Source of the DNA: an uncultured Anaeromyxobacter sp.
GTDB taxonomy: Bacteria; Myxococcota; Myxococcia; Myxococcales; Anaeromyxobacteraceae
Assembly (NCBI GenBank): GCA_903874275.1
Contig: CAIQRS010000237.1
Span: 1-59,936, forward strand
Direction: 5' to 3'
DNA: 59,936 nucleotides
The notes under the pieces were generated by a model. The model ran no database searches, was not told the origin of the DNA, and saw nothing but the letters and a program-made list of their open reading frames with translations. Positions 32,627-57,366 of this stretch are shown here, one piece after another. Within the stretch, counting starts at the first letter, position 1, and each line of letters starts with the position of its first letter. Both the position numbers and the translations under genes were made by a program.

Positions 32627-32962
32627 TCAGAGGAGCCGCTCGTAGAGGCTGCGTGCCTGCCGCATCTTCCCCTCGCGCTCGTACTGCTCGCAGATGTCCA
32701 TGATCCGCTCGTGGGCCAGGAGGGCCTCCGCCGTCCCGTCGTGGGATTCCACGAGCTCGAAGTACATCTCCATGGCCTGGTGCGGCGCGCCGCTGCGGCG
32801 ATAGCCGTCGGCCATCCGGAGCAGGCGGGCCAGCACGGGCGAGGAAGGCTCCACCGCCGGCGGCGGCGCCTGCGGAGTCACCCTGACCTCCACCACGGTG
32901 ACCTCCTCCTCTTCCCGGGCGATCTCCCGCTGCAGCTCGACCTCCTCGCGAAGGGTGCTCAT
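32627..32962 (-). CDS. TPR-like protein, last gene of the gas vesicle operon
   Basis: 111 residues. An acidic N-terminal helix (LREEVELQREIAREEEEVTVV) leads to a Pro-rich linker (TPQAPPPAVEPSS). Paired helices follow that read as one and a half tetratricopeptide units (LLRMADGYRRSGAPHQAMEMYFELV; ICEQYEREGKMRQARSLYERLL). It matches no Gvp family I know. ATG 32962 overlaps the stop of the GvpJ-type gene (ATGA) and has an AGGAGG site, so it is part of the operon. It may be an assembly adaptor. Confidence 0.65.
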   Translation of the reverse strand: MSTLREEVELQREIAREEEEVTVVEVRVTPQAPPPAVEPSSPVLARLLRMADGYRRSGAPHQAMEMYFELVESHDGTAEALLAHERIMDICEQYEREGKMRQARSLYERLL

Positions 32963-33315
32963 GGCTCCCTCCTGCTGACCGGAACGGCGAGGAACGCCGA
33001 ACCCGAGGCGGCCGGCATCGGGGCGTGCTCCAGCTGCGCGATGCGCTGGCGGAGCTCGTGGATCTCCTTGGTCTGGTCGGTCATGGCCTTGGAGCTGAAG
33101 TCGGGGTTGCGGATCCACCAGTCCATTCCCATCTCCTTCGCCTTGTCGACCGAGGCGATCATGAGCCGGATCTGGATGGTGAGCAGCTCGATGTCCACGA
33201 GCTTCACCTTGATGTCCCCGGCGATGACGATCCCCTTGTCGAGGACCCGCTCCAGGATGTCGGCCAGGTTCGACGTGTTGGTCGAATGGGCCAGGCGCGT
33301 GCGTTGCTGTTCCAT
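32959..33315 (-). CDS. gvpJ: GvpA-family gas vesicle protein, GvpJ-like paralogue
   Basis: 118 residues. The GvpA core (NLADILERVLDKGIVIAGDI, KLVDIELLTIQIRLMIASVD) has the coil-helix-beta-beta-helix order of the shell protein. An extended C-terminal half (EMGMDWWIRNPDFSS, then a coiled-coil MTDQTKEIHELRQRIAQLEH) separates J/M/S paralogues from GvpA itself. Such paralogues are minor components needed to nucleate the cone tips. It overlaps both neighbours (TGATG with gvpK, ATGA with the TPR-like gene). GvpS or GvpM is the alternative name. Confidence 0.88.
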   Translation of the reverse strand: MEQQRTRLAHSTNTSNLADILERVLDKGIVIAGDIKVKLVDIELLTIQIRLMIASVDKAKEMGMDWWIRNPDFSSKAMTDQTKEIHELRQRIAQLEHAPMPAASGSAFLAVPVSRREP

Positions 33316-33692
33316 CAGCTTCTCCCCTGCGGACCGCGGTCGTCGAAGAGATTTCCGAGCGGTCCGAGGTCGATGTCGAGGCTCTCGATCTTGAAGTGTT
33401 CCTTCAGCTTCTCCATCTGCTCCTCCAGCTTCATGAGCGTCGTGCCGAGACGCTCCACCTCGTCGGGGGAGAGGCTGCCGCCCTCCACGCGCCGGATGGC
33501 CTGCTTCTCGAGCAGGCGGCGGAGCAGCTCCACGACCGAGAGGACGAGCTGGGTGAGCCCCTGCTCGACCTTCTCCGGGTCGAGGGCGATGCGCTTCGGG
33601 AGCTGCTGCGGCGGCCGGGGAGCCTCGGCCTCGTCGGCGAAGGCTTCCAGGTCCTCGGGGCTACCGCGGATCTCTCCGTGGTGGATGGTCAT
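33315..33692 (-). CDS. gvpK: Gas vesicle protein GvpK
   Basis: 125 residues with the GvpK signature: LDPEKVEQGLTQLVLSVVELLRRLLEKQAIRR, then GSLSPDEVERLGTTLMKLEEQMEKLKEHF (each read as a long helix). The family is essential for gas vesicle formation in several hosts, and its exact role in assembly is unsettled. An N-terminal 30-residue acidic/proline extension precedes the core. The ATG at 33692 overlaps the upstream GvpA-family gene by four bases. Confidence 0.92.
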   Translation of the reverse strand: MTIHHGEIRGSPEDLEAFADEAEAPRPPQQLPKRIALDPEKVEQGLTQLVLSVVELLRRLLEKQAIRRVEGGSLSPDEVERLGTTLMKLEEQMEKLKEHFKIESLDIDLGPLGNLFDDRGPQGRS

Positions 33693-33928
33693 GGTCGGGT
33701 CTCCGCGGGCTTCCAGTTGCGCATGGTCTCCACCGAGGTGACGACGAGGTTCAGCCCGACGTACAGGAGATCGACGCCGGCCACGGAGATGACGATGTCC
33801 CCCGCGACCACGGCCCCCTTGTTGAGGACCCGGTCGAGCGTCTCGCAGAGGCTGACCCTGCGCTGGCTTGCCAGCGACGCGACGCGGGGACGGGAGGCCG
33901 CGCGATGGACGAGGTCAGGCTGCGCCAC
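33689..33928 (-). CDS. GvpA-family gas vesicle protein (GvpM/S-like paralogue)
   Basis: 79 residues with a GvpA-type core (SLCETLDRVLNKGAVVAGDI, VAGVDLLYVGLNLVVTSVETM) after a 25-residue basic leader. The second beta strand ends in a hydrophobic YVGLNLVV rather than the canonical VEARVVIAS, so it is a minor paralogue and not the main shell protein. The GTG at 33928 is preceded by GGAAAGG and overlaps the gvpG end by 14 bases. Which of GvpJ/M/S it corresponds to cannot be fixed from sequence alone. Confidence 0.82.
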   Translation of the reverse strand: MAQPDLVHRAASRPRVASLASQRRVSLCETLDRVLNKGAVVAGDIVISVAGVDLLYVGLNLVVTSVETMRNWKPAETRP

Positions 33929-34157
33929 GCTTCCCCTTTCCCTTCCGGTGCCGGTCGATCTCGTCGAGCCGTTCCACCAGCTCGGCCTCGCGCTCGGCGA
34001 AGGCCTCCTCGGTGATGGCGCCCTCCTCGAGCTGCCGGTAGGTGGCCATCAGCTCGGCCTTGACGGCGTCCTCGTCGTACATCTCGGCCTCGGCACGATC
34101 GGCCACCTCCCGGAAGATCCGGAAGAGTCCCCGCATCGGTGACGAGATGATGCCCAA
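33915..34157 (-). CDS. gvpG: Gas vesicle protein GvpG
   Basis: 80 residues, beginning LGIISSPMRGLFRIF and continuing with the conserved ADRAEAEMYDEDAVKAELM and GAITEEAFAEREAELVERLDEI helices. This is the GvpG pattern of a hydrophobic N-terminus followed by acidic helices. The TTG at 34157 is taken as the start because GAGGGG lies just upstream and homologues begin with this 'xGxI' segment. The internal ATG at 34136 would remove it. GvpG is an accessory assembly protein that works with GvpF/L. It lies eight bases after gvpF. Confidence 0.9.
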   Translation of the reverse strand: MGIISSPMRGLFRIFREVADRAEAEMYDEDAVKAELMATYRQLEEGAITEEAFAEREAELVERLDEIDRHRKGKGKRGAA

Positions 34158-34165
34158 GGGTCCCC

Positions 34166-34936
34166 TCAGTTCTCCGCGTCGAGGCCGAGGTCCAGGTCCA
34201 CGAAGTGGAAGGGCGCCCAGGGGCCGCTGTAGTCGAACACGTACTCGGCCGGGAAGGCCCCGGCCACCTGGTAGACCCGCTCCTCGAAGGCCTTCTGGGC
34301 GTCCCGGTCCACCAGGAAGGCCAGGTCCATCACCATCTTCTCGCCCTTGGGCGCGTTGACCTTGGCCTCGCGCACGCTCTGCTGGAACATCTCCAGGACC
34401 CGGTCGGTCTGCTCGTCCCGCTCCCGGTTCAGGCGGTCCTCGAAGAGCTTGCCCAGCTCCATCTTCTCGTTCGCCGACGGGGCGGTGGAACGTCCGAAGA
34501 TCTGGTCGCGGAGCGCAGCCAGCTCCGGATCGACGCCGACGATGTAGTCGTAGATGCTGTCGACGTCCCACTTCACCTTGAGACCCATCTCGACGGCGCC
34601 GGTCACCCGCTCGAGCTGGGCGGTGATGGCCGCGCGGTGGCGCCGCAGGGTCTTCCGGATCTCCTCGTCGCTCCGGGCCACGTGGCCGAAGGTCATGGGG
34701 ATGACCGTGGTGGCCCGCATGACCTCCTTCAGGACCTGGTTGTGCGGCTCCAGGTTCTTGCGGAGCGGGAGCAGGCGCTCGCGGGGCGAGAAGTCGCTCA
34801 CCACGGCGCCCATGGAGTCCACCAGCACCGTGTGCACGCGTCCCCGGCTTCCATCGTGCTCCAGGCCGATGGCGCCGAACTCGACGTCCTCCTTCGCCCG
34901 GATGAGTCCGTACAGGTAGCGCCCAGTCGTCGCCAT
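34166..34936 (-). CDS. gvpF: Gas vesicle protein GvpF/GvpL
   Basis: 256 residues in two domains. The N-terminal region (RYLYGLIRA, GAVVSDFSPRERLLPLRKNLEPHNQVL, TTVIPMTFGHVARS) and the C-terminal region ending FDYSGPWAPFHFVDLDL are hallmarks of GvpF/L, which sit on the gas-facing side and bind GvpA during assembly. AAGGAGGGG precedes the ATG at 34936. It is the only F/L copy in the gvpA operon. Two more lie in the upstream operon. Confidence 0.93.
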   Translation of the reverse strand: MATTGRYLYGLIRAKEDVEFGAIGLEHDGSRGRVHTVLVDSMGAVVSDFSPRERLLPLRKNLEPHNQVLKEVMRATTVIPMTFGHVARSDEEIRKTLRRHRAAITAQLERVTGAVEMGLKVKWDVDSIYDYIVGVDPELAALRDQIFGRSTAPSANEKMELGKLFEDRLNRERDEQTDRVLEMFQQSVREAKVNAPKGEKMVMDLAFLVDRDAQKAFEERVYQVAGAFPAEYVFDYSGPWAPFHFVDLDLGLDAEN

Positions 34937-35255: not shown

Positions 35256-36281
35256 TCAGGCCTCCTCGGCCACCGACTGGCCGATGACGGGAACGGGACG
35301 GGCCTTCTGCTCCGGGCGGGGACGCCTGGCGTGGCGCGCCACCACGTCGTCCACGGTGGTGCGCACCGAGCCGTCGCCGTCGCGGATCACCTTCGCCGAG
35401 AGGGATCCGAGCACGTCCCGGCAGACGTCGCCGAAGACCGGGTCGCCGGCCCGGGCGTGCGCCTTCTCCTGGACCGTGACGCGGGAGATCATGATGCAGG
35501 CGCGCAGGCTCGGTCCCTGCTTGGTGAGGCCGAGGGTCCTGAGTTCCCGCACGATGTCCACGATCACCTCCGCCTCGGCAAGCGGGATCCCCGACTTGCT
35601 CCGGGTGATCTGCACCTCGGTCTCCCGGTCGAAGTGGTTCACCAGGATGGTGATGAGGCGATCGTTGAGCGCATCCTGCGTCCGGTGGACGCCCGCGTAC
35701 TCCTCGGGGTTGGAGGTCAGGATGGCCCGGAACTCGGGGTGCACCTCGATGAAGCCGTCCCCATGGGGGCGGCGCTTGGGGATGGAGAGGATCCGCTCCT
35801 CCAGCACCGAGAGGAGGGCGTTGTTGGCCTCGGCGCGCGAGCGGGTGAACTCGTCGTAGACCAGCGTGTCGCCGTTCCTGCACGCCACGGTGAGCCGGTT
35901 GTCGGCCCAGAGGGTGCTCATGTTCTCCTCGGTCTTGACGACCGAGTGGATGAAGTTGTCCACCACCCGGCTCTTCTTGTAGCCGAAGTCGCCGCCCACC
36001 AGGTCGCTGGACCCGAACTCGTCGTCGCCGTGCATGAGAGCGACCGGTCGCCCGCGGAGCGCCGCCACGTGGAGCGCCAGCGTGGTCTTCCCCGTCCCGG
36101 CCGGCCCGGAGAAGTGCACCGGGTAGCCGGCCCGGAGGTATCCGAGCGCGCGTTGCGCCACGGCCCTGACCTGCGGCGTCTCGACGAACTGGGCGGCGGC
36201 CTCGACCCCGATCGTGCTGTGCGGCAGGGGGGCCATGCCGCCCGCCTGCTCCTGCGCTGCCCCGAAAACCTTGCCAGCCAT
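35256..36281 (-). CDS. gvpN: Gas vesicle AAA+ ATPase GvpN
   Basis: 341 residues, a MoxR-type AAA+ protein. Walker A is GPAGTGKT at 59-66, and the Walker-B region is GDTLVYDEFTRSR. Sensor-1-like AILTSNPEEYAG and the family signature DDEFGSSDLVGG with FGYKKSRVVDNFIHSV are present. GvpN is needed for normal gas vesicle growth, helping GvpA incorporation or shell strengthening. A 30-residue N-terminal lead and an Arg/Pro-rich C-terminal tail flank the core. The gap to the next gene is two bases. Confidence 0.95.
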   Translation of the reverse strand: MAGKVFGAAQEQAGGMAPLPHSTIGVEAAAQFVETPQVRAVAQRALGYLRAGYPVHFSGPAGTGKTTLALHVAALRGRPVALMHGDDEFGSSDLVGGDFGYKKSRVVDNFIHSVVKTEENMSTLWADNRLTVACRNGDTLVYDEFTRSRAEANNALLSVLEERILSIPKRRPHGDGFIEVHPEFRAILTSNPEEYAGVHRTQDALNDRLITILVNHFDRETEVQITRSKSGIPLAEAEVIVDIVRELRTLGLTKQGPSLRACIMISRVTVQEKAHARAGDPVFGDVCRDVLGSLSAKVIRDGDGSVRTTVDDVVARHARRPRPEQKARPVPVIGQSVAEEA

Positions 36282-36361: not shown

Positions 36362-36790
36362 TCAATGCTTCCTCGAATGCGCGGGACGACGGGTCTGCAC
36401 CGCCCGCGGCCGGCTGGCGGCCGGGGTCTGGACCGCCCGCGGCCCGCTGGCGGCCGGGGCCTGGCGAGGCCGAGACTTCCGGAATGCGGCGCTGGCGGCG
36501 TGGATGTCCGACGCCAGCGTCTCCCGGGTGAGCTCGGCCCGGTCGAGCAGCGCCCGGACCGCGGAACGCAGCTCGCTCGCGAACACCTTGCGGGCGTCGG
36601 CCTCCTCGGCCGCCCGCTCACGGCGCTCCTCCTGGAGCTTGCCGAGCATGGCGGCCGTCTCGGCGCGAATGCCCTCCGTGAACTCGTTGCAGCTCTTGAT
36701 GCTGGCCGCGCAGTTCTGGAAGCTCGCCGCGATCTCGTTGCCGAGGGCCAGCATGGCCTCCGGGGTGAAGCTGGTGAACTGGGTCTTCAT
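36362..36790 (-). CDS. Coiled-coil protein in the gvpC position (candidate shell-binding protein)
   Basis: 142 residues from ATG 36790, which has GAGG nine bases upstream. A longer start at 36829 would translate that ribosome site. The N-terminus MKTQFTSFTPEAMLALGNEI is phasin-like. Continuous helix follows (SIKSCNEFTEGIRAETAAML, EERRERAAEEADARKVFASEL, RALLDRAELTRETLASDIHA). The tail is basic and repetitive, with the unit 'PAAS-x-PRAVQT' twice. In cyanobacteria this slot between gvpA and gvpN is gvpC, the outer strengthening protein of helical repeats. No clear GvpC repeat is visible, so equivalence is positional only. Confidence 0.6.
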   Translation of the reverse strand: MKTQFTSFTPEAMLALGNEIAASFQNCAASIKSCNEFTEGIRAETAAMLGKLQEERRERAAEEADARKVFASELRSAVRALLDRAELTRETLASDIHAASAAFRKSRPRQAPAASGPRAVQTPAASRPRAVQTRRPAHSRKH

Positions 36791-36840
36791 GGCGAGGTTC
36801 CTCGTTCCTTCCTGCTGGGTGGCGGACATGGCGACACCCC

Positions 36841-36890: not shown

Positions 36891-37112
36891 CTAGGCGGCG
36901 GGCGCGGCGGCGGTGGCGGTCAGGCCGATCGCCTCGGCGTACTTGAGGTAGGTCTCGACCGACGCGATCACGACGCGCGCCTCGACCGAGAGCAGCTCGA
37001 TGCCGACCAGCGAGACCTTCGCCCAGGCGTCGATCACGATGCCCTTGTCCAGGATCCGGTCCACCACTTCTGCGAGGCTCGACGAGTCCGTCGACTTCAT
37101 GACCTTCGCCAT
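36891..37112 (-). CDS. gvpA: Gas vesicle structural protein GvpA
   Basis: 73 residues, the main shell protein that polymerises into the hollow gas-filled ribs. The canonical core is complete: [41 protein letters not shown] and [13 protein letters not shown]. The C-terminus is short and Ala-rich (TATAAAPAA). ATG 37112 has GGAGG four bases upstream. The frame runs on to 37346 but that extension is promoter DNA. It is the first gene of the downstream gas vesicle operon, driven by a sigma-54-type promoter about 55 bases away and followed by a GC-rich hairpin. Confidence 0.96.
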
Positions 37113-37167
37113 AAAACCTCCAACTTCCTGTTCGAGTCGCTCGATTGCGAACTCTCCCTGGAACAAG

Positions 37168-37183
37168 AGCATCGGCCGTGCCA
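37168..37183 (-). promoter_or_regulatory. Sigma-54 (-24/-12) promoter of the gvpA operon
   Basis: On the minus strand the sequence reads TGGCAC-N5-ATGCT, against the consensus TGGCAC-N5-TTGCW. GG and GC are exactly ten bases apart, and the -24 half is perfect. Transcription would start near 37157, giving a leader of about 45 bases before gvpA. The adjacent upstream genes include an NtrC-type activator. Confidence 0.75.
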
Positions 37184-37283
37184 CGCTCCGCGCCAGCGCT
37201 CCAGGCCGCCAGGCCAGGACCGCATGCTGGATCCACAGGGGTTTCGCATCCACCGTGGCGCGGCGGAAGGAGGGACCCGATCC

Positions 37284-37301
37284 GGGAGGGAGTGGCCTCC
37301 C
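37284..37301. promoter_or_regulatory. Inverted repeat upstream of the gvpA promoter (possible activator site)
   Basis: GGGAGG-N6-CCTCCC, a perfect 6-bp dyad about 110 bases upstream of the -24 element, inside the 258-base gap between the receiver gene and gvpA. The distance suits an enhancer for an NtrC-type activator. It could instead be a weak terminator for the receiver gene. Apart from this and the promoter the gap holds nothing I recognise. Confidence 0.35.
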
Positions 37302-37370
37302 ATGCGGAGCGCCCGCCGGCCAGGGAGCCGGTTCCTGTCGGTGCACCGAGGGTCACGTGGAGGGAGGCCG

Positions 37371-37769
37371 TCATGCCGCCACCCACGCCAGGAGCGCCGC
37401 CTCGACCGAGTCGATCATCTGGGAGTTCACGAAGGGCTTGTCGAAGTAGGCGTGGAGCGCCTGGGAGCGCACCTGGTCGCGGAGCGCCACGCTGCCATAG
37501 GAGGTCATGAGGATCGCCCGGAGCCCGGGGAGGTGGATGCGGAGCCGCTCGATGAGGGCGGTGCCGCTGCCGTCGGGGAGCCGGTAGTCCACGATGGCGA
37601 CCTGGCAGTCGAACGTCGAGGCCACCCGGAGGGCCTGGGCGACGTTGAGCGCGGTCCGGACCACGTGACCTCGTTCCGAGAGGACCCGGGCCAGCACCCA
37701 GCAGAGGTTCTCCTGGTCGTCCACGACCAGGATGCGGCCGGCCAGGAGGCTCTCATTCCTCGAGTTCAA
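37371..37769 (-). CDS. Single-domain response regulator
   Basis: 132 residues, a receiver domain only (RILVVDDQENLCWVLARVL; phospho-acceptor Asp in VAIVDYRLPDG; conserved Lys in YFDKPFVN). It has no output domain, so it would act as a phosphate relay or sink, or by protein contact. The start is a TTG at 37769 with AGGAGG directly upstream, overlapping the end of the NtrC-type gene by 17 bases. It is the last gene before the gvpA promoter. Confidence 0.88.
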   Translation of the reverse strand: MNSRNESLLAGRILVVDDQENLCWVLARVLSERGHVVRTALNVAQALRVASTFDCQVAIVDYRLPDGSGTALIERLRIHLPGLRAILMTSYGSVALRDQVRSQALHAYFDKPFVNSQMIDSVEAALLAWVAA

Positions 37770-39174
37770 GGGCCTCCTCCAGTCCGTAGCGGCGGAGCTT
37801 GCTGCGAAGGGTCTTCGGATCCACTCCCAGGACCCTCGCCATCCGGGTCCGGCTCATCCTCCGGTCCTGGAGGAGCGTGGCGAGAAGGGACCGCTCCATC
37901 TTCTCCATGGCCTCCGCGCCCATTGCCTTGAGGTCGATGTGGGCGGCCCGGATTCCCATCTCGATCTGGACGTGGAGGCGGCCGTCGTCGGAGACGGGAA
38001 TGGCCTCGGGCGCCTCGGCGACCACGTGGAGCCGCACCGGTGCGGTCCGGCGCAGCTCGGGAGGGAGGTGCTCCGGCTGCACGACGTCCCTGGCCAGGAC
38101 GACCGCGCCCTTCACGACGTTCTCGAGCTCCCGCACGTTCCCGGGCCAGGTGTGGGCCTCGAGCAGCAGCAGCGCCTCCTCGGAGATCCCGGTGACCGGG
38201 ACGCCAAAGCGGGCCGCGTAGGAGGTCACGAAGTGCCGGGCGATCCGGCTGACGTCCCCCCCGCGCTCCCGCAGCGGAGGCAGGGTGACGGTGATCTCCT
38301 GGAGCCGGTAGTAGAGGTCCTGGCGGAAGCGCCCCACCCGGATGGCCTCGGTGAGGTCCACGTTGGTGGCCGAGACCACCCGGACGTCGAGGGCCACCGT
38401 GTCGCGCCCTCCCACCCGTTCCATCTTCCGGGCCTGGAGGACGCGCAGGAGCTTGGCCTGGAAGTCGAGCGGCCAGTTCCCGATCTCGTCGAGGAAGAGG
38501 GTGCCTCCCTGCGCCGCCTCGAGGTGCCCCTGCCGGGCGCTGGTGGCGCCGGTGTATGCCCCTCGCTCGTGGCCGAAGAGCTCGCTCTCGATGAGCCCCT
38601 CGGGCATCACCGAGCAGTCCACCGCCACGAAGGGACCCCTCCTGCGCTTGCTCGCGGCGTGGATGGCCCTGGCGAACAGTTCCTTGCCCGTGCCGGTCTC
38701 TCCGAGGAGCAGCACGTTGATGTCCGGGACCGCGAAGCGGAGCGCACGCTCCATCGCCTGCCGGAAGGCCGGGCTGTCGCCGAGGAGGAGCGGGGAGCCG
38801 GCGCCGTCTCCCCGCTGCATGGTCAGGAGGGCCTCGACCGTGCCGAGGAGGGTTCGGTTGTCGAAGGGCTTCACCACGAAGTCGGTCGCGCCGTGCTTCA
38901 TCGCCTCCACGGCGACCGCCACCGTCCCGTGGCCGGTGAACATGACGATCGGCATGCCCGGCGCGGCGGGGCGCATGCGGCGGAGCACCTCCATGCCGTC
39001 CATGGCGCCGAGGTGCAGGTCGAGGAGGACCAGGTCGGGCCGGCGATCGCCCAGGGCGTTCATGGCCTCGGCGCCCGAGCCGACCCACCGCGAGGTGTGA
39101 CCACGCTCGGCCAGGAGCGTTGCCACCAGCGTCCCGAGGTCGCGCTCGTCGTCGACGATCAGGATGTGCGCCAC
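37753..39174 (-). CDS. NtrC-family sigma-54 activator of the gas vesicle locus
   Basis: 473 residues. The receiver has D52 (VLLDLHLG) and a K near 102 (VVKPFD). The AAA+ domain has Walker A GETGTGKE at 158-165, and GAYTGA at 205-210 for sigma-54 contact. A C-terminal Fis-type helix-turn-helix follows (MSRTRMARVLGVDPKTLRSKLRRYG). The GTG at 39174 lies one base after the kinase stop with GGAGG upstream. It is embedded between gas vesicle genes and lies upstream of a -24/-12 promoter at gvpA. It is therefore the obvious candidate to switch on gas vesicle synthesis, and possibly its own operon. Confidence 0.93.
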   Translation of the reverse strand: MAHILIVDDERDLGTLVATLLAERGHTSRWVGSGAEAMNALGDRRPDLVLLDLHLGAMDGMEVLRRMRPAAPGMPIVMFTGHGTVAVAVEAMKHGATDFVVKPFDNRTLLGTVEALLTMQRGDGAGSPLLLGDSPAFRQAMERALRFAVPDINVLLLGETGTGKELFARAIHAASKRRRGPFVAVDCSVMPEGLIESELFGHERGAYTGATSARQGHLEAAQGGTLFLDEIGNWPLDFQAKLLRVLQARKMERVGGRDTVALDVRVVSATNVDLTEAIRVGRFRQDLYYRLQEITVTLPPLRERGGDVSRIARHFVTSYAARFGVPVTGISEEALLLLEAHTWPGNVRELENVVKGAVVLARDVVQPEHLPPELRRTAPVRLHVVAEAPEAIPVSDDGRLHVQIEMGIRAAHIDLKAMGAEAMEKMERSLLATLLQDRRMSRTRMARVLGVDPKTLRSKLRRYGLEEALELEE

Positions 39175-39175
39175 G

Positions 39176-40417
39176 TCAGCCTCCCCTCCGTCGTTCGACG
39201 GGCAGCTTCAGCGTGAACCGGACGCCGCCGTCCGTGAGGTTGTCGGCGTCGAGCTCACCGCCGTGGTCCCGCGCGATCTGGCGGGAGAGGTAGAGCCCGA
39301 GCCCCGTGCCGCCCACCTTGGTGCTGTGGAACGGCCGGAACAGGTGGGGCAGCACGTCCGGCTGGATCGAGGGGCCGTCGTTCTCGAGCTCGAGGATCAT
39401 CTCGTCGCCCAGGTCCGAGAGGCGGGTGCGGAGAGACAGCCTTCCGCCGCGACCGTCCAGCGCGTCCAGGCCGTTCATCATGAGGTTCAGCACGATCTGC
39501 TTCAGCCCCTGGGAGTCCACCCATGCGACGGGGATGCGCGGGTCGAACGAGACGTCGACGGCGACCGCGCGCCGCTCGCACTCCGAGGCGGTGAGTCGCA
39601 GGAGATCGGGGACGATCTCGTTCAGGCTGGCGCGCTCGAAGAGCGCCTTCCCGGGCGCGCCGGCATCGAGCATCCTGCGGAGGAGCCCCTGGATGCGCTC
39701 GACGTTGGAGAGCGCCGCGCTCGCGAACTCGCTGGCCTCGTCGTGCGTCCGGACCAGGCGCTCGTGGAGGTACTGGAGGCTCGAGCTGATGATGGAGAGC
39801 GGATTGCCGAGCTCGTGGGCGATGATGGCCCCGAGCTGGCCCAGGGTCGCCTGCTTCTCCGGGCCGCTGCCCGAAAGGACGCCCAGCTCGGCGACGTGCT
39901 CGACCCCCTGGGCCTGGAGGAACCACCGGGGACAGTCGGGGATGAGCAACCGGGCGCTCAGCACCGTGCCGCAGCTCTCGAGGAGCGCGCTCCGCGACAG
40001 GGCGCTCAGGCTCCCCAGCTCCCAGGCGATCAGGACGGCGTGGGGGCCCGGGGCGGACTGCACGGCGCGCGCCAGCGCGCGCACCGGCGTCCCGTCCCCT
40101 CCCTCCGGGACCGGGGCATCGACCCACGCCACCGTCCGCCTCGGCTCGTCGTCGCTCGGGCGGATCGCGGCCAGGACCGCGTCGACGGCCGCCGTCCATC
40201 CCGCCTCCGAGACCGGCCCCGCGGCTGCGGGGAAGGGACGGAAGCAGAGCCCCTGGAGCCCCCTCGGGTCGAGATCGCGCGCGACGCGGCGCGCCTTCTC
40301 GAGCCGGGCCTCCGAGCCGACGAAGCAGAGGCGCGAGCCGATGGCCTCGCACCGCCGCGAGACGGAGAGCAGGGCCAGGGCCAGTTCCCGGAATTCCTGT
40401 CCGAGGACGCAGATCAT
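39176..40417 (-). CDS. Cytoplasmic sensor histidine kinase of the gas vesicle locus
   Basis: 413 residues without membrane segments. The N-terminal ~180 residues (starting MICVLGQEFRELALALLSVS) have alternating strands and helices like a degenerate RecA/MEDS-type sensory domain, without a P-loop. HisKA follows with H201 (AIIAHELGNPLS), then HATPase (NLMMNGLDAL, GGTGLGLYLSRQIA). It sits one base upstream of the NtrC-type gene, so they form a cognate pair. The signal sensed is not readable, and a soluble sensor suggests an internal cue such as redox or energy state. Confidence 0.85.
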   Translation of the reverse strand: MICVLGQEFRELALALLSVSRRCEAIGSRLCFVGSEARLEKARRVARDLDPRGLQGLCFRPFPAAAGPVSEAGWTAAVDAVLAAIRPSDDEPRRTVAWVDAPVPEGGDGTPVRALARAVQSAPGPHAVLIAWELGSLSALSRSALLESCGTVLSARLLIPDCPRWFLQAQGVEHVAELGVLSGSGPEKQATLGQLGAIIAHELGNPLSIISSSLQYLHERLVRTHDEASEFASAALSNVERIQGLLRRMLDAGAPGKALFERASLNEIVPDLLRLTASECERRAVAVDVSFDPRIPVAWVDSQGLKQIVLNLMMNGLDALDGRGGRLSLRTRLSDLGDEMILELENDGPSIQPDVLPHLFRPFHSTKVGGTGLGLYLSRQIARDHGGELDADNLTDGGVRFTLKLPVERRRGG

Positions 40418-40424
40418 CTCTCGC

Positions 40425-42617
40425 TCAGCTCCCCCTGTTCGGGTCGCGAAGGGCGGCCGCGCGTGCGCGAACGACCTCGTCGACGGCGGTGTCGAGGTGC
40501 AGCGCGCTGATGCGGAGGCTGGCGGGGTCGCCCGGCCCTCCCTTGCGGTCGATGAACTCGCGCACGGCCAGGAGGGCTCCCCGGTCGCACGCCGTCTCGA
40601 TCTCGGCGCCCGTGAAGCCATCGGCCCGGCGCACCAGCGTCGCCACGTCCACGCCGGGGGCGAGCGGCTTGCCGGCCAGGTGCACCGCGAAGATCTGGGC
40701 GCGCCCGTCCGCGTCGGGCGTCGGCACCTCCAGGATCAGGTCGAAACGTCCGGGGCGGAGCAGCGCCGGGTCGAGGATGTCCTTCCGGTTGGTGGCCGCC
40801 ACCACCAGGACGCCCTTCAGCTCCTCCACGCCGTCCATCTCGGTGAGCAGCTGGCTGATGACCCGCTGGGAGACGTTGGAGTCCGAGCCGCCCGAGCCGC
40901 GCACCGGCGCCAGCGCGTCGATCTCGTCGAAGAAGATGATGCAGGGGGCGGCCTGGCGGGCCTTCTTGAAGACCTCGCGGATCCCCCGCTCGCTCTCGCC
41001 CACGAACTTGGAGAGGAGGGCAGGGCCCTTCACCGAGATGAAGTTCACCCCGCTCTGCGAGGCCACCGCCTTGGCGAGCAGCGTCTTGCCGGTGCCCGGG
41101 GGGCCGTGGAGGAGGATCCCCTTGGCGGGGGAGACCCCGGCGTGCTCGAGGAGCGCGGCGTGCTGCAACGGCCACTCCACGGCCTCTCGGAGCTCCCGCT
41201 TCACCGACTCGAGCCCGCCCACCTGGTCCCATCGGACGTCGGGGACCTCGACGAAGACCTCGCGAACCGCCGAGGGCTCGATCTCCGAGAGGGCCGAGAC
41301 GAAGTGGGCCATGCTGACCTGGAGGGAGGTGAGCACTTCGTAGGGGATCTCCTGGCTGGCCAGGTCGAGCTCCGGCATCACCCCGCGCAGCGTGGTCATG
41401 GCCGCCTCGCGGCACAGGGCCTCCAGGTCGGCGCCCACGAAGCCGTGGGTGATGGCGGCGAGCCGGTCCAGGTCCACGTCCTCGGTGAGCGGCATGCCGC
41501 GGGTGTGGATCTCGAGGATCCCGCGCCGCGCCCCGGCGTCGGGGATCCCGATCTCGATCTCCCGGTCGAACCTGCCGGGCCGGCGCAGGGCCGGGTCGAG
41601 CAGGTTGGGCAGGTTGGTGGCGGCGATGACGATGATCTGGCCGCGCGAGGCCAGGCCGTCCATGAGGGCGAGGAGCTGGGCCACCACCCGCTTCTCCACC
41701 TCGCCCTGCACGTTCTCGCGCTTGGGGGCGATGGCGTCGATCTCGTCGATGAAGATGATGCAGGGAGCGCTCTTGCGCGCCTGCTCGAAGATCCCGCGGA
41801 GCTTGGCCTCGCTCTCCCCGTAGAACTTGTGGATCACCTCGGGGCCGCTCACCGTGATGAAGGAGGCCTCGGTCTCGTGCGCCACGGCGCGGGCCAGCAG
41901 GGTCTTCCCGGTGCCCGGGGGGCCGTGGAGCAGCACGCCCTTGGGGGCGTCGATGCCGAGCCGCTCGAAGAGCTGGGGATGGCGCAGCGGGAGCTCGATC
42001 ATCTCGCGGACCCGCCGGATCTCCTTCTTCAGGCCGCCCACGTCCTCGTAGGAGATCCCACCCTTCTCGGCTCCCTTGCGGGCGTCGGCCTCGATGGTGA
42101 TCTGGGTCTGGGGATGGACGACGACGCACCCGGTCCGCGGCGTCGTGGCCACCACCTCGAAGTCCTGGAAGCGCGAGCCGAAGAGCGTGGCCCGCACCCT
42201 GTCCCCCACCTGGACCGGGAGCCCCTCGAGCAGCCTCCCCACGTACCGGGAGTCGGAGGCGCGATCGGGAACCCTCGCCTCCCCGACCGAGCGGAGCGCG
42301 ATCCGGGCCGCCGGGGAGTGCTCGACCCGGGCGACCGTCACGCGCCCGTCGATGGCCGCCTTGGCGTTGCCGCGGATGATCCCGTCGATCTGGACGAGCT
42401 TCTTGCCGCGGGCGTCGGCGTAGGCCGGCATGGCCTTGGCGACGGCCCCGCGCTCGCCGGAGATCGAGACGATGTCGCCCACCTCGGCGCCGATGGCGGC
42501 CAGGTCCCTCGGGTCGAGGCGGGCGATGCCCCGGCCCACGTCCTTGCCCAGCGCTTCCGTGACGCGGAAGGAGTGTGATCCGACCGTCGCTTCCCGCTTC
42601 CTCGTCTCAGCGGCCAT
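40425..42617 (-). CDS. Cdc48/p97/VAT-type two-ring AAA+ ATPase
   Basis: A 730-residue protein with the full Cdc48 layout. The N-domain has a double-psi barrel (about 10-95, [17 protein letters not shown]) and a second subdomain. D1 has Walker A GPPGTGKT at 232-239 and Walker B IIFIDE near 287-292. D2 has Walker A GPPGTGKT at 505-512 and Walker B IIFFDE near 560-565. Both rings keep arginine-finger regions ([14 protein letters not shown]). Cdc48 unfolds or extracts proteins from complexes. It lies inside the upstream gas vesicle operon, overlapping the preceding gene by 11 bases, so it may remodel vesicle proteins or a regulator, which is inference. Confidence 0.93.
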
Positions 42618-43257
42618 CGCTTCCCCGATCTTCCTGGCGCCGACGCGGGTCGGCTCCGAAGGGCAGGCTGTGGATCACGTGACGGACCTCGAACCCATCG
42701 CCGAGGAGCTCGTCCACCCGGTGCAGGAGGCCCACGAAGAGCAGGCCGGTCTCGCCTTCCAGGAGCGTGGACTCGATCCGGCCGGCCATGAAGGCGTCCC
42801 GATCCTGGAGGAGACGTTCCCCCTCGGCGCGCAGCTCGAGCGCCAGGGTGTCCGACTCCGACTCCAGGAGCCGCGAGGCCTCGACGAGCTTCTGGACGCG
42901 CCGGTACTCGGCCACGATCAGCGGCGCGCTCTCGGTCCCCATGAGCGTCGCACCGCGCGTCATCGCCTCGAGGAGGATCTGGTGGTTCCGGCTGCCCTGC
43001 CGGGCCAGGTCACGGACGATCTCGGCCTCGTGGCCGCAGACCGGGAGGCCGTCCTGGTAGAGCCGGGTTCGCCGCCAGTCGAGGGGGAGCGCGAGGAGCT
43101 TCCGGGTGATGCCTTCCCACATCGCGTCCACCGAGGAGAAGCGCCGCTCCCAGGCCATCCTTCCAAAGGCCTCCTGGTACCGCTCGCGAACCGCTCCACC
43201 GACCGACCCGAGATCGGTTTCGGAGTGGATGATGGGAATGTAGATCAGGGAGCGCAC
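42607..43257 (-). CDS. Unrecognised helical protein of the gas vesicle operon
   Basis: 216 residues starting at GTG 43257 with RSLIYIPIIHSETDLGSV, a strand then His/Glu/Asp cluster. Charged helices follow (VDAMWEGITRKLLALPLDWRRTR, and long ELRAEGERLLQDRD stretches). The end carries HVIHSLPFGAD. The motif IYIPIIH-x-E-x-D-x-GS recalls conserved hypothetical proteins, but I cannot name the family. The clustered H/E/D could be a metal or nucleotide site. It overlaps the receiver gene by 13 bases and the Cdc48 gene by 11, so it is certainly part of the operon. Confidence 0.65.
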   Translation of the reverse strand: MRSLIYIPIIHSETDLGSVGGAVRERYQEAFGRMAWERRFSSVDAMWEGITRKLLALPLDWRRTRLYQDGLPVCGHEAEIVRDLARQGSRNHQILLEAMTRGATLMGTESAPLIVAEYRRVQKLVEASRLLESESDTLALELRAEGERLLQDRDAFMAGRIESTLLEGETGLLFVGLLHRVDELLGDGFEVRHVIHSLPFGADPRRRQEDRGSDGR

Positions 43258-43667
43258 ACGGCTTCCCGCGCCGTCTTCGGGGTGCACTCGAGCGCCTCCT
43301 GGATCACCGACATCACGAAGTCGAGCGCGACGGGCTTGGCGATGTAGTCCCAGGCGCCGAGCCCCATCGCCTCGCGGGCTCCCTGGAGCGTCGCGCTTCC
43401 GGTGAGCAGGATGACGGGGGCCTTCTCGCCCAGGGACCGCAGCGCACGGAGCGTCGCCAGCCCCTCGGTGTCGCTGCTCCCCAGGTCGAGCAGGACGAGG
43501 TCCGGATCGCTCCCCGTGGCCATGTCGAGGAGCTGGCGCCCGGTGGAGGCCACGATCACGCAGTGGCCGTCGTCGCGCAGGCCGGAGTCGAGCGCCGCGC
43601 GCGCGCGCGCGTCGGTCTCGGCGACGAGGATGGTGAAGCGGCGGTGGCCAGGGGCCTGGAGGATCAC
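43245..43667 (-). CDS. Single-domain response regulator (second receiver of the locus)
   Basis: 140 residues of receiver fold (RFTILVAETDARARAALDSGL; Asp in LVLLDLGSSD; ILLTGSATL; Lys in DYIAKPVAL). The first acidic pair is ET-D rather than DD, a modest departure. No output domain. The GTG at 43667 has AAAGGAG upstream and overlaps the gvpF/L stop by GTGA. With the kinase, the NtrC-type activator and a second lone receiver, it could form a branched phosphorelay. Confidence 0.85.
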   Translation of the reverse strand: MILQAPGHRRFTILVAETDARARAALDSGLRDDGHCVIVASTGRQLLDMATGSDPDLVLLDLGSSDTEGLATLRALRSLGEKAPVILLTGSATLQGAREAMGLGAWDYIAKPVALDFVMSVIQEALECTPKTAREAVCAP

Positions 43668-44314
43668 GAGAGACTCCTTTCGAGCGGGGGCGCCCCGGAG
43701 GGCGCACGCGATGTGGCGCGGAGCGACAGGTCGCAGAAGCTGTAGGGGGCCCAGGGGCCCGTGCCGAGGACGCGCAGGCCCGTCTCGGCGCGCAGGGCGG
43801 CGACCTCCGACCAGAACGGCTCGATCCGGGAACGGGGGACGAGGTAGCAGGCCTCGAGGACGGTCGCGCCGGGAAGGCTCTTCCGCCGCTCCTGGGGTTG
43901 CACGGTCCTGGACGCCAGCGCGCGGATCCGCACGAGGGCGGACGCGAGGCTTCCCTCGATGGGCCTTCCCAGGCCAGGAATCCGGACCTTCAACCCCATC
44001 TCGACGTGGCCGGCCAGGTCCCTGAGACGGGTGGACAGCTCCTCCCGGTTCCCGGCGAGGAGCTCGAGGGCCTCCTGCTCGGATGCCACCTCGATGCCGG
44101 CGCGGAACGGGACGACGGAGGTGCACGCATCGAGCGCGTGCGCCACGATGCGGGCGTGCCGGAGCGCGGCGCGGGTCGTGGACTCCTGCCGCACCGGTCC
44201 CAGGATCGCCGCCAGGCGACCGTGGGCAACGCAGCGGGCGCCGATCGCGCGCCCCAGGGCCCCGGGCGCCTCGTCGGCCGGCACCGCCACGTGGAGGAGG
44301 AGGGGACCGATCAT
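43664..44314 (-). CDS. GvpF/GvpL family protein (second copy, short)
   Basis: 216 residues with GvpF/L features: LLLHVAVPADE, TTRAALRHARIVAHALDA, SVVPFRAGIEVASEQEAL, HVEMGLKVRI and the C-terminal GTGPWAPYSFCDLSL. It is shorter than the gvpF in the other operon. The ATG at 44314 overlaps the stop of the neighbouring F/L gene (ATGA). Multiple F/L paralogues are usual and may act at different stages of GvpA handling. Confidence 0.85.
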   Translation of the reverse strand: MIGPLLLHVAVPADEAPGALGRAIGARCVAHGRLAAILGPVRQESTTRAALRHARIVAHALDACTSVVPFRAGIEVASEQEALELLAGNREELSTRLRDLAGHVEMGLKVRIPGLGRPIEGSLASALVRIRALASRTVQPQERRKSLPGATVLEACYLVPRSRIEPFWSEVAALRAETGLRVLGTGPWAPYSFCDLSLRATSRAPSGAPPLERSLS

Positions 44315-45177: not shown

Positions 45178-45693
45178 CTAGGGGGATTTCGGAAGCTTGA
45201 GTTCGTACACGCCGTGGCGATAGGAGGACGAGGCGCCCTTCTCCTTCACCGCGGAGGGAAGCAGCAGTTCCTTCTGGTACTTCCGGTCGCCGTGCGCCGC
45301 CGAGAGGTGCAGGATGTCCCCCTTCACCTCGAAGGCGATGTCCTTCTCGGAGACGCCGGGCAGCTCCGCCACGATCAGCAGGTGGTCCGACTCGTCGAAG
45401 ACGTCCACCATCGGCTCGCGCGCCTCCTCCACGACGGGCGAGCCGTCGCGGTCGGACTTCACGTTTCCGAAGTTCTCGATGAGCGGCTTTCCGCCGCCGC
45501 CGACGCGGACGGAGAAGCCGTAGACGGCCTTCATGCCCTTCTTGTCGCTGCCGATCTCCCCGGACTTCGAGAACTCGCCGTCGCCCTTTTCGGCCAGATC
45601 CGAGAGGAGCTCGAGGAACCCGCCGAGACTCTTGAACATCCCGCCGAGCCCCGCATCTGCGGGTCCGGACCGGGTCGATCGCTTCTGGGACAT
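45178..45693 (-). CDS. gvpH: Hsp20-family gas vesicle protein GvpH
   Basis: 171 residues. The N-terminal lead holds a helix (MFKSLGGFLELLSDLAEKGDGE) and VYGFSVRVG. An alpha-crystallin domain follows: PMVDVFDESDHLLIVAELPG, DIAFEVKGDILHLSA, ELLLPSAV and the terminal YELKLPKS. GvpH proteins with this Hsp20 layout occur in gas vesicle clusters of haloarchaea and bacteria and act as chaperones for GvpA or regulators. CAGGAGG precedes the ATG at 45693. It is the first gene of the upstream operon, about 27 bases from a predicted sigma-54 start. Confidence 0.88.
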   Translation of the reverse strand: MSQKRSTRSGPADAGLGGMFKSLGGFLELLSDLAEKGDGEFSKSGEIGSDKKGMKAVYGFSVRVGGGGKPLIENFGNVKSDRDGSPVVEEAREPMVDVFDESDHLLIVAELPGVSEKDIAFEVKGDILHLSAAHGDRKYQKELLLPSAVKEKGASSSYRHGVYELKLPKSP

Positions 45694-45729: not shown

Positions 45730-45745
45730 AGCAAGAACCGCGCCA
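45730..45745 (-). promoter_or_regulatory. Sigma-54 (-24/-12) promoter of the gvpH operon
   Basis: TGGCGC-N5-TTGCT on the minus strand, one mismatch from the consensus TGGCAC-N5-TTGCW, with GG and GC exactly ten bases apart. The predicted start near 45720 gives a short leader before gvpH. It would drive the operon that encodes the NtrC-type activator, which allows positive feedback. Confidence 0.75.
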
Positions 45746-54633: not shown

Positions 54634-57366
54634 ATCGAGACGCACTGGCACGCCCTGTCTGCCGACGAGGCCCTGGCCCGGACGGCGAGCGGCCCGGAAG
54701 GGCTGACCACCGCCGAGGCGGGACGCCGGCTGGCCGCGCACGGTCCGAACCTGCTCGCCCACGCGGCCGGGGAGGGCGCCTGGCGCATCCTCTGGCGCCA
54801 GGTGGACAGCCCGCTCATCCTGGTTCTCCTGGCGGCTGCCGCGGTGGCCGCCCTGCTCGGAGAGGTCACCGACGCGGCGGTGGTGGGTGCCGTGGTGGTC
54901 GTCAACACGCTCATCGGATTCTTCCAGGAGTTCCGGGCCAGCCGCGCCATCGAGGCGCTGGCTGGCCTCGTTCCGGACGGCGCCACGGCCCTGCGCGACG
55001 GGGACCGGCGCGCCGTGCCGCTCGCCGAGCTGGTCCCCGGCGACATCGTCGCTCTCGCCTCCGGGGACAAGGTCCCGGCCGATCTCCGCCTGCTCGCCGT
55101 GAAGGGGCTGCGGGTGGAGGAGGCCGCGCTCACCGGGGAATCCACTCCCGCCGAGAAGGGCACCGCCGCGTCGCCCGAGGACGCAGAGCTCGGCGACCGT
55201 CGTTGCCTGTCCTTCGCGGGCACGCTCGTCGCGTCGGGGACCGGCATCGGGGTGGTGGTGGCCACCGGGGAGGGCACCGAGCTGGGAAAGGTCTCGGGGC
55301 TCCTGCGCCAGGCCGACGTGCTCGCGACGCCGCTCACCCGGGCGCTCGCCCAGGTGGGCAAGACCATCACCCTCGGGATCCTCGCGCTGACCGCGGTCAT
55401 GATGGCGGTCGGCACCTGGCGCAGCGTGGGGCAGGGCGTGCCGATGGGCGAGGCCCTGCGGGAGATGCTGGTCTTCTCCATCTCGCTGGCGGTCGGCGCC
55501 ATCCCGGAGGGGCTGCCCGCCATCGTCACCATCGCGCTGGCCATCGGCGTCCAGCGCATGGCGGCGCGTCACGCCATCGTCCGGAAGCTGCCGGCCGTGG
55601 AGACGCTCGGCTCCACCACGGTCATCTGCTCCGACAAGACCGGCACGCTCACCCGGAACGAGATGACGGTGCTCTCGCTCTGGACGCCCGCCGGTGCGCT
55701 CGACGTGGAGGGAAACGGCTGGGCGCCACGGGGGCGCTTCCTCTCCGGCGGCCTTCCGGTGACGCCGGATGCCGGGGCGCTCGACCTGATGGGCGCGGGG
55801 GCGCTCTGCAACGACGCCAACGTCGAGCGGGCCGGCTCCGGGTTCGCGGTGACCGGCGACCCCACCGAGGCGGCGCTGGTGGTGGCGGCGGGGAAGGCCG
55901 GCATGCAGGCCCAGGCGCTGCGGGGCGAGGCGCCGCGCCTCGACGTCCTGCCCTTCGAGTCGGAGCACCAGTTCATGGCCACGCTGCACCGGTGGCCGGA
56001 CGGGACCCGGAGACTCCTGGTGAAAGGGGCGCCCGAGGTGGTCCTGCGCCGCTGCTCGTCCCTGGCCGGTGGCGGTGCGCTCGACGCCCGCGCCGTGCTG
56101 GCCGAGGTCGAGACGATGGCGGGGCGGGGCATGCGGGTGCTGGCGATCGCGGCGCGCCCCTGGGAAGCGGCAGGCGACGCCCTTTCCCCGGCCGACCTCG
56201 AGGGCGGGCTCCGGCTGCTCGGACTGGTGGGGATGATCGACCCGCCGCGGCCCGAGGCCATCGCCGCCGTGACGGCGTGCCGCGCGGCGGGCATCCGCGT
56301 GAAGATGATCACCGGCGACCATCCGGGAACGGCCCAGGCCATCGGCCGCCAGCTCGGGCTGCTCGGCGCGGACGAGGTCGCGATCGCGGGCGCCGAGCTC
56401 TCCGCCACCAGGGACGAGGACCTGGGAGCCCTGGCCGCGCGGGGCAGCGTCTTTGCCCGGGTCTCCCCGGAGCACAAGCTCCGGCTGGTCCGCGCGCTGC
56501 AGCGGGCCGGCCAGGTGGTGGCCATGACCGGGGACGGCGTCAACGACGCACCGGCGCTCCGGCAGGCGGACATCGGCGTGGCCATGGGGATCACCGGCAC
56601 GGCGGTCTCCCGGGAGGCGGCCGACATGGTGCTCACCGACGACAACTTCGCCACCATCGTCGCGGCGGTGGAGGAGGGGAGGCGCGTCTACGACAACCTG
56701 GTCAAGGCCCTCGCCTTCGTCCTCCCCACCAACCTGGGGCTGGCGCTCATCTTCGTCTGCGCCGTCTTCGCCTTCCCGTTCGACGCGGCGACGCAGGCGC
56801 TCCTCCTTCCGATGCGCCCGACCCAGCTCCTCTGGATCAACCTCGTCGCCGCCGTGACCCTGGCCCTTCCGCTGGCCTTCGAGGGCAAGGAGCGGGACGT
56901 GATGGATCGCCCCCCCCGCCCCGCGGGGGAGCCCATCCTCTCGGGGCTGGTCCTGCGCCGGACCGCGCTCTCGGCACTGCTCATGACGGCCGGGGCGGTG
57001 GGGCTCTTCCTCTGGGAGTGGCACCGCGAGCTGGCCGCCGGGGTGGCGCCACCCCTCGCCCTCGCCGAGTCGCAGACGCTGACCGTCACCGCCGTGATCT
57101 TCTTCCAGGTGTTCTACCTGCTCGAGTCCCGCTCCTTCGACCGGTCGCTCTTCGCGAGCGGTCTTCGCGAGAACCCGGCCGTGCTGCCGGGAGTGGCGGC
57201 CCTCCTGGGATTGCAGGCGCTCTTCGTCTACGCGCCCTTCATGCACCGGGTCTTCGGGACCGCGCCCCTCGCGCTCGCCGACCTCGGCCGGGCCGCGCTG
57301 GTGGCGCTGGTGATCCTGCCGGCCATGGGGATGGAGAAGATCCTGACCCGTCGTCGTCGTCGATGA
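54634..57366 (+). CDS. P2-type cation-transporting ATPase with probable AUC start
   Basis: About 910 residues. The N-terminal THWHALSADEALARTASGPEG is the usual cation-ATPase opening. The frame has no ATG, GTG or TTG before the GTG at 54802, which would cut off this domain. The ATC at 54634 has GGAGGGG at the right distance and is the likely start. Motifs are TGES at 167-170, phosphorylated D334 in CSDKTGTLT, TGDGVND at 632-638, PEGLPA in helix 4 and NLVAAVTLALPLAFE in helix 6. That helix 6 lacks the Asp of Ca2+ pumps, so the transported ion is uncertain. Its stop overlaps the glycosyltransferase start. Confidence 0.85.
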   Translation: METHWHALSADEALARTASGPEGLTTAEAGRRLAAHGPNLLAHAAGEGAWRILWRQVDSPLILVLLAAAAVAALLGEVTDAAVVGAVVVVNTLIGFFQEFRASRAIEALAGLVPDGATALRDGDRRAVPLAELVPGDIVALASGDKVPADLRLLAVKGLRVEEAALTGESTPAEKGTAASPEDAELGDRRCLSFAGTLVASGTGIGVVVATGEGTELGKVSGLLRQADVLATPLTRALAQVGKTITLGILALTAVMMAVGTWRSVGQGVPMGEALREMLVFSISLAVGAIPEGLPAIVTIALAIGVQRMAARHAIVRKLPAVETLGSTTVICSDKTGTLTRNEMTVLSLWTPAGALDVEGNGWAPRGRFLSGGLPVTPDAGALDLMGAGALCNDANVERAGSGFAVTGDPTEAALVVAAGKAGMQAQALRGEAPRLDVLPFESEHQFMATLHRWPDGTRRLLVKGAPEVVLRRCSSLAGGGALDARAVLAEVETMAGRGMRVLAIAARPWEAAGDALSPADLEGGLRLLGLVGMIDPPRPEAIAAVTACRAAGIRVKMITGDHPGTAQAIGRQLGLLGADEVAIAGAELSATRDEDLGALAARGSVFARVSPEHKLRLVRALQRAGQVVAMTGDGVNDAPALRQADIGVAMGITGTAVSREAADMVLTDDNFATIVAAVEEGRRVYDNLVKALAFVLPTNLGLALIFVCAVFAFPFDAATQALLLPMRPTQLLWINLVAAVTLALPLAFEGKERDVMDRPPRPAGEPILSGLVLRRTALSALLMTAGAVGLFLWEWHRELAAGVAPPLALAESQTLTVTAVIFFQVFYLLESRSFDRSLFASGLRENPAVLPGVAALLGLQALFVYAPFMHRVFGTAPLALADLGRAALVALVILPAMGMEKILTRRRRR

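Follow-up and report, generated by a model that had tools for sequence, protein, structure and literature searches.

A probable sigma-54 promoter upstream of gvpA in a gas vesicle cluster of an uncultured Anaeromyxobacter, with candidate tandem activator sites

The gas vesicle cluster

The window, that is, the whole stretch of 59,936 nucleotides analyzed here, comes from an uncultured Anaeromyxobacter sp. and carries a cluster of gas vesicle genes on its minus strand (Table 1). The shell protein gene gvpA is followed by a gene in the gvpC position, by gvpN and by further gvp genes that are presumed to belong to the same operon. Upstream of gvpA, and on the same strand, are the genes of a receiver-only response regulator, a sigma-54 activator, a histidine kinase, a CDC48-type ATPase, an unassigned protein, two gvpF/L proteins and gvpH. 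The CDC48-type AAA+ ATPase (40425-42617, minus strand) is also present in the clusters of Methylosinus and of genomes G165 and G098. The cluster protein encoded at 42607-43707 (minus strand), which gave no Pfam match in the frames tested, is conserved, with 72% identity in genome G015 and 52-57% in other families. Our literature search for gas vesicles together with Anaeromyxobacter found no mention.

Table 1. Genes and predicted regulatory features of the gas vesicle cluster (positions in the window)
Feature	Positions	Strand	Basis
gvpF/L, gvpG-like, gvpA2, gvpK-like and gvpA3, in line with gvpA	32959-34936	-	order kept in relatives
gvpN	35256-36281	-	TIGR02640
155-aa protein in gvpC position, without Pfam match	36362-36829	-	
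gvpA, 73-aa gas vesicle shell protein	36891-37112	-	PF00741, NF006874
Predicted gvpA mRNA 5' leader, 45 nt, inferred +1 at ~37157	37113-37157	-	spacing from GC
Predicted 5'-terminal hairpin, GAGUUCGC-AAUCGA-GCGACUC, from about +4	37134-37154	-	folding of first 30 nt
Probable sigma-54 -24/-12 promoter of gvpA, TGGCAC-GGCCG-ATGCT, TGGCACGGCCGATGCT	37168-37183	-	exact match, genome count, conservation
Third element, GCGAAACCC, partly conserved, between UAS2 and -24 box	37239-37247	-	shared by gvpA promoters
UAS2, GGGAGGCCACTCCC, candidate activator site, 119 bp upstream of GG	37288-37301	-	in 7 of 9 gvpA copies
UAS1, GGAACCGGCTCCC, second candidate activator site, about 34 bp from UAS2	37323-37335	-	matrix score
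Receiver-only response regulator, directly upstream of gvpA	37371-37769	-	PF00072
NtrC-type sigma-54 activator: receiver, AAA+ with GAYTGA, Fis-type HTH	37753-39174	-	PF00072, PF00158, PF02954
Histidine kinase, start uncertain, ORF overlaps next gene	39176-40621	-	PF00512, PF02518
gvpH-like Hsp20 protein, heads gene run including activator	45178-45693	-	NF041800; weak GvpH
Second sigma-54-like site, TGGCGCGGTTCTTGCT, upstream of gvpH	45730-45745	-	read 45745-45730

The promoter element and the leader of gvpA

The element TGGCACGGCCGATGCT occupies 37183-37168 of the minus strand (5' to 3'), with its GG at 37182-37181, its GC at 37170-37169 and 10 nt between them. The GG-N10-GC core of a sigma-54 promoter stands in its TGGCAC/TTGCW context; against TGGCAC-N5-TTGCW, the sole deviation is in the -12 box, where an A replaces the first T (ATGCT, not TTGCT). 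A first-pass annotation of this DNA had reported TGGCAC-N5-ATGCT with exact GG-N10-GC spacing and a leader of about 45 bases, and both statements hold. When the C of the -12 GC is taken as -12, the predicted start (+1) falls at ~37157, 45 nt from the gvpA start at 37112. The same annotation had placed an activator gene directly upstream, which was incorrect: the receiver-only regulator adjoins gvpA, and the sigma-54 activator lies one gene further.

The leader is predicted to begin with a hairpin. Hairpins in the leaders of L166, L167 and L168 have other sequences but start at nearly the identical place, and this agreement in position supports the predicted start. Folding of the whole leader gave no significant result for the hairpin, and the support comes from the first 30 nt and from this common position. 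Such a structure suggests an mRNA-stabilising 5' end, and the region could also be a protein-binding site. No known RNA family was found in the leader at the gathering threshold.

Chance expectation and genome counts

In the 60-kb window, three matches to TGGCRC-N6-TGCW were observed against 0.57 expected; they lie upstream of gvpA, upstream of gvpH and inside the kinase gene of the cluster. The whole draft genome (5.07 Mb) holds 15 matches to the stricter TGGCAC-N6-TGCT, fewer than the 40 of a reversed-pattern control. Two of the 15 are located 55-56 nt before the genome's two GvpA-type genes, and the count expected in two 150-nt upstream regions is about 4.5e-4 by a rough estimate. By a simple scan, only three matches (both gvpA sites and one other) have a ribosome-binding site and an ORF start close downstream.

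It could be argued that TGGCACGGCCGATGCT is a chance match, as about 0.6 such sites per window are expected randomly, and that the operon owes its transcription to a different promoter or to read-through out of the upstream gene run, whose genes lie on the same strand with no terminator found between the receiver gene and gvpA. However, no sigma-70-like site was found in the region between these two genes either, and a sigma-70 promoter for gvpA at this place was dropped on that ground. The element is kept in duplicated and distant gvpA copies despite diverged flanks and is absent where the GvpA type differs, as described below. On genome counts and conservation, we reject a chance match, which the first-pass annotation had likewise called unlikely, and we regard this whole explanation as extremely improbable.

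Conservation across gvpA copies and families

The congeneric comparison covered three genomes of one genus, the present one, G015 and G016, with nine GvpA-type copies in total. The element is found at a constant position, some 71-73 nt upstream of the start codon, in eight of the nine; seven have TGGCAC-N6-TGCT, the eighth has TGGCGC-N6-TGCT at an equal distance from the start, and the copy on C110 is the one that lost the site. Three other Myxococcota families (L139, L140 and L141), with GvpA proteins 94-97% identical, all have the element 60-72 nt upstream of the chosen start, with scores of 14-14.5 of 15 under weights that the analyst set from the general consensus. In 23 divergent myxococcotal gvpA genes the element is absent, and the scores are not clearly above those of shuffled sequence (p 0.09 or more). 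Within the phylum, the promoter accompanies one type of GvpA but not others.

Similarity among the gvpA copies is partly due to duplication, as their proteins are 93-100% identical and the leader is common to them. These same facts would fit a stronger claim, that the common sequence is only the footprint of recent duplication, without selection for a promoter. But unrelated gvpA copies have only about 30% identity over the 95 bp that precede the element, and the spacers have diverged down to about that level, yet the ten core bases are fixed in seven copies; since the motif served as the anchor of this flank comparison, the core identity is partly by construction, whereas the constant position is not. 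Together with the retention of the element in unrelated families, this makes a mere duplication footprint very improbable.

Candidate activator sites

Two inverted repeats, GGGA-N6-TCCC, are present 34-35 bp apart in seven of the nine gvpA copies; the copies on C110 and C150 are without them. Some repeats deviate by one changed base or by a 5-nt centre. From the GG, the nearer repeat begins 97, 107 or 119-120 bp upstream, and these distances increase by roughly a helical turn at a time. With a matrix built from the regular 14-mers, the irregular repeat at 37322 (UAS1), which was not part of the training set, takes third rank in the window. When the repeat and the promoter were searched together, this genome gave three places, two of which are gvpA promoters; the tandem repeat alone occurs mainly at gvpA promoters in the three gvp-bearing genomes. 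Outside the genus, the repeats are weak or rearranged. A high-scoring repeat at 55135 was also considered as an activator site; it is single and inside a long coding frame, which we read from its translation as presumably P-type ATPase-like, and it was taken as chance.

Activator sites usually lie 100-250 bp from the promoter (PMC6615313), and the repeat distances agree with this range. The conserved tandem inverted repeats supply candidate upstream activator sites; judged from their sequence they are likely enhancer sites, and we infer that they are bound by the NtrC-type activator of the cluster.

The activator, its gene neighbors and RpoN

The activator has the motifs GETGTGKE and GGTLFLDE (Walker A and B) and GAYTGA, a natural variant of the GAFTGA-type loop that has been reported as functional (PMC6615313), and qualifies as a candidate enhancer-binding protein. 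The activator-interaction and DNA-binding domains of RpoN are present in this genome at two contig ends, rpoN being split in the draft; in relatives it is an uninterrupted frame. In G165, the order is kinase, activator, receiver and gvpA, the last three being adjacent, as in the window, with the activator reversed only by contig orientation. On the Methylosinus and Methylocella plasmids, the order is activator-gvpF/L-kinase-receiver-gvpA.

This linkage of activator, receiver and gvpA in distant lineages bears on the question of what binds the repeats. The sigma-54 promoter may be real while a different protein, either another activator or a repressor, occupies the repeats and the neighboring NtrC-type gene acts elsewhere. 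Such genomes usually encode many activators, and the repeats differ in distant relatives even though the G165 activator has a similar recognition helix. Against this stand the linkage itself and the position of the tandem repeats, 97-155 bp from the promoter, which is about the usual activator-site distance cited above. We consider a different binder unlikely, and prefer binding by the activator of the cluster.

The first-pass annotation had predicted enhancer-dependent, all-or-none induction. Enhancer dependence gains support from conservation across copies and families, the tandem repeats, the co-conserved NtrC-type activator and rpoN. The all-or-none part is unsupported, because a sigma-54 promoter does not imply such induction: these promoters are silent without an activator, yet a graded response is possible.

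The gvpH-side site and the scattered gvpA copies

A second, near-perfect sigma-54-like site lies before gvpH. Its counterpart in G098 (L168), TGGCGCGGGGCTTGCT, is similarly placed and also strong, and G165 (L167) has a weaker site there that resembles its own gvpA promoter; in L036 the gvpH-side site is absent. Since the activator belongs to the gene run headed by gvpH, the sequence suggests a self-amplifying loop, and a positive loop of this kind could sharpen the response.

Elsewhere in this genome, a detached second gvpA (L129:8661-8879, i.e., G000:C238:41660-41878), whose protein is 97% identical, has the same repeats and promoter. Apart from a degenerate copy of the gene in the gvpC position it is isolated, and a kinase gene encoding helix-turn-helix and PAS domains immediately precedes it. 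Similarly, one gvpA copy in G016 is behind a PAS kinase and a receiver, and another in G015 is behind a PAS kinase. Contigs break inside gvpA at the right end of G016:C151 and the left end of G016:C56. Because some draft contigs end inside the gene, near-identical copies are probably under-counted and the copy number is uncertain. It is tempting, if tentative, to suppose that one activator runs a scattered regulon of distant gvpA copies, some behind their own PAS kinase, in addition to the gvpH loop, so that several sensory inputs would feed one flotation switch; we hold this to be possible but rather doubtful.

Comparison with known systems

Sigma-54 control of gvpA is already known in Serratia sp. 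ATCC 39006, where gvpA1 has a mapped start, a consensus sigma-54 site and dependence on GvrA and RpoN (PMC4982088, PMC11778176). Both systems have a sigma-54 site before gvpA (gvpA1 in Serratia) and a cluster-encoded NtrC-type activator near it, the need for RpoN having been shown in Serratia. The gene order is also similar (gvpA-(gvpC position)-N-V-F-G-A2-K-A3). By analogy, the present case most likely works in the same way. The second operon differs: in Serratia gvrA comes first, from a sigma-70 promoter, whereas here gvpH comes first behind the sigma-54-like site, and the activator and receiver come last. A functional gvpH-side site would put the gene run that contains the activator under sigma-54 control and close a positive loop, unlike in Serratia. 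The tandem inverted repeats and the detached gvpA copy are further differences described here.

The plasmid gvp clusters of Methylosinus C49 and Methylocella tundrae likewise have a sigma-54-dependent regulator, a kinase and a receiver, then gvpA. They differ in the gvpF/L between activator and kinase, in their weaker sigma-54-like sites and in a longer leader, and tandem GGGA-N6-TCCC repeats were not found in them. Among other plasmid records, Thiodictyon has a sigma-54-like match, but 207 nt upstream, and Spartinivicinus and Octadecabacter gave no such match. With NtrC-/NifA-type promoters, the gvpA promoter has in common the -24/-12 element, upstream tandem (here candidate) activator sites and a receiver-AAA-Fis activator; unlike in these, the target is a buoyancy organelle and the repeat differs from the TGT-N10-ACA type.

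Proposed mechanism and significance

Taken together, we propose, with a probability of roughly 0.92, that 37183-37168 is a working sigma-54 promoter, which would be opened by the neighboring NtrC-type activator via the tandem repeats. RNA polymerase with sigma-54 would sit at this site in a closed state. The activator, encoded 0.6-2 kb upstream and presumably phosphorylated via the neighboring kinase and receiver, would bind the tandem GGGA-N6-TCCC sites (37288-37335), loop over and open the promoter with ATP. Transcription would start near 37157, just ahead of the small hairpin, and cover gvpA and the following gvp genes, and the gvpA copy on C238, with the same enhancer-promoter module, would be co-induced.

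What is new here is a defined candidate enhancer, a second operon that is arranged differently, and scattered targets. The tandem GGGA-N6-TCCC repeat is a concrete, directly testable candidate for the activator-binding motif. Under this proposal, gas vesicle genes beyond those of Serratia come under sigma-54 control, in lake-dwelling relatives of Anaeromyxobacter as well as in other Myxococcota. In the lake bacterium studied here, the flotation organelle would probably be built only on a signal from the neighboring sensor-regulator pair.
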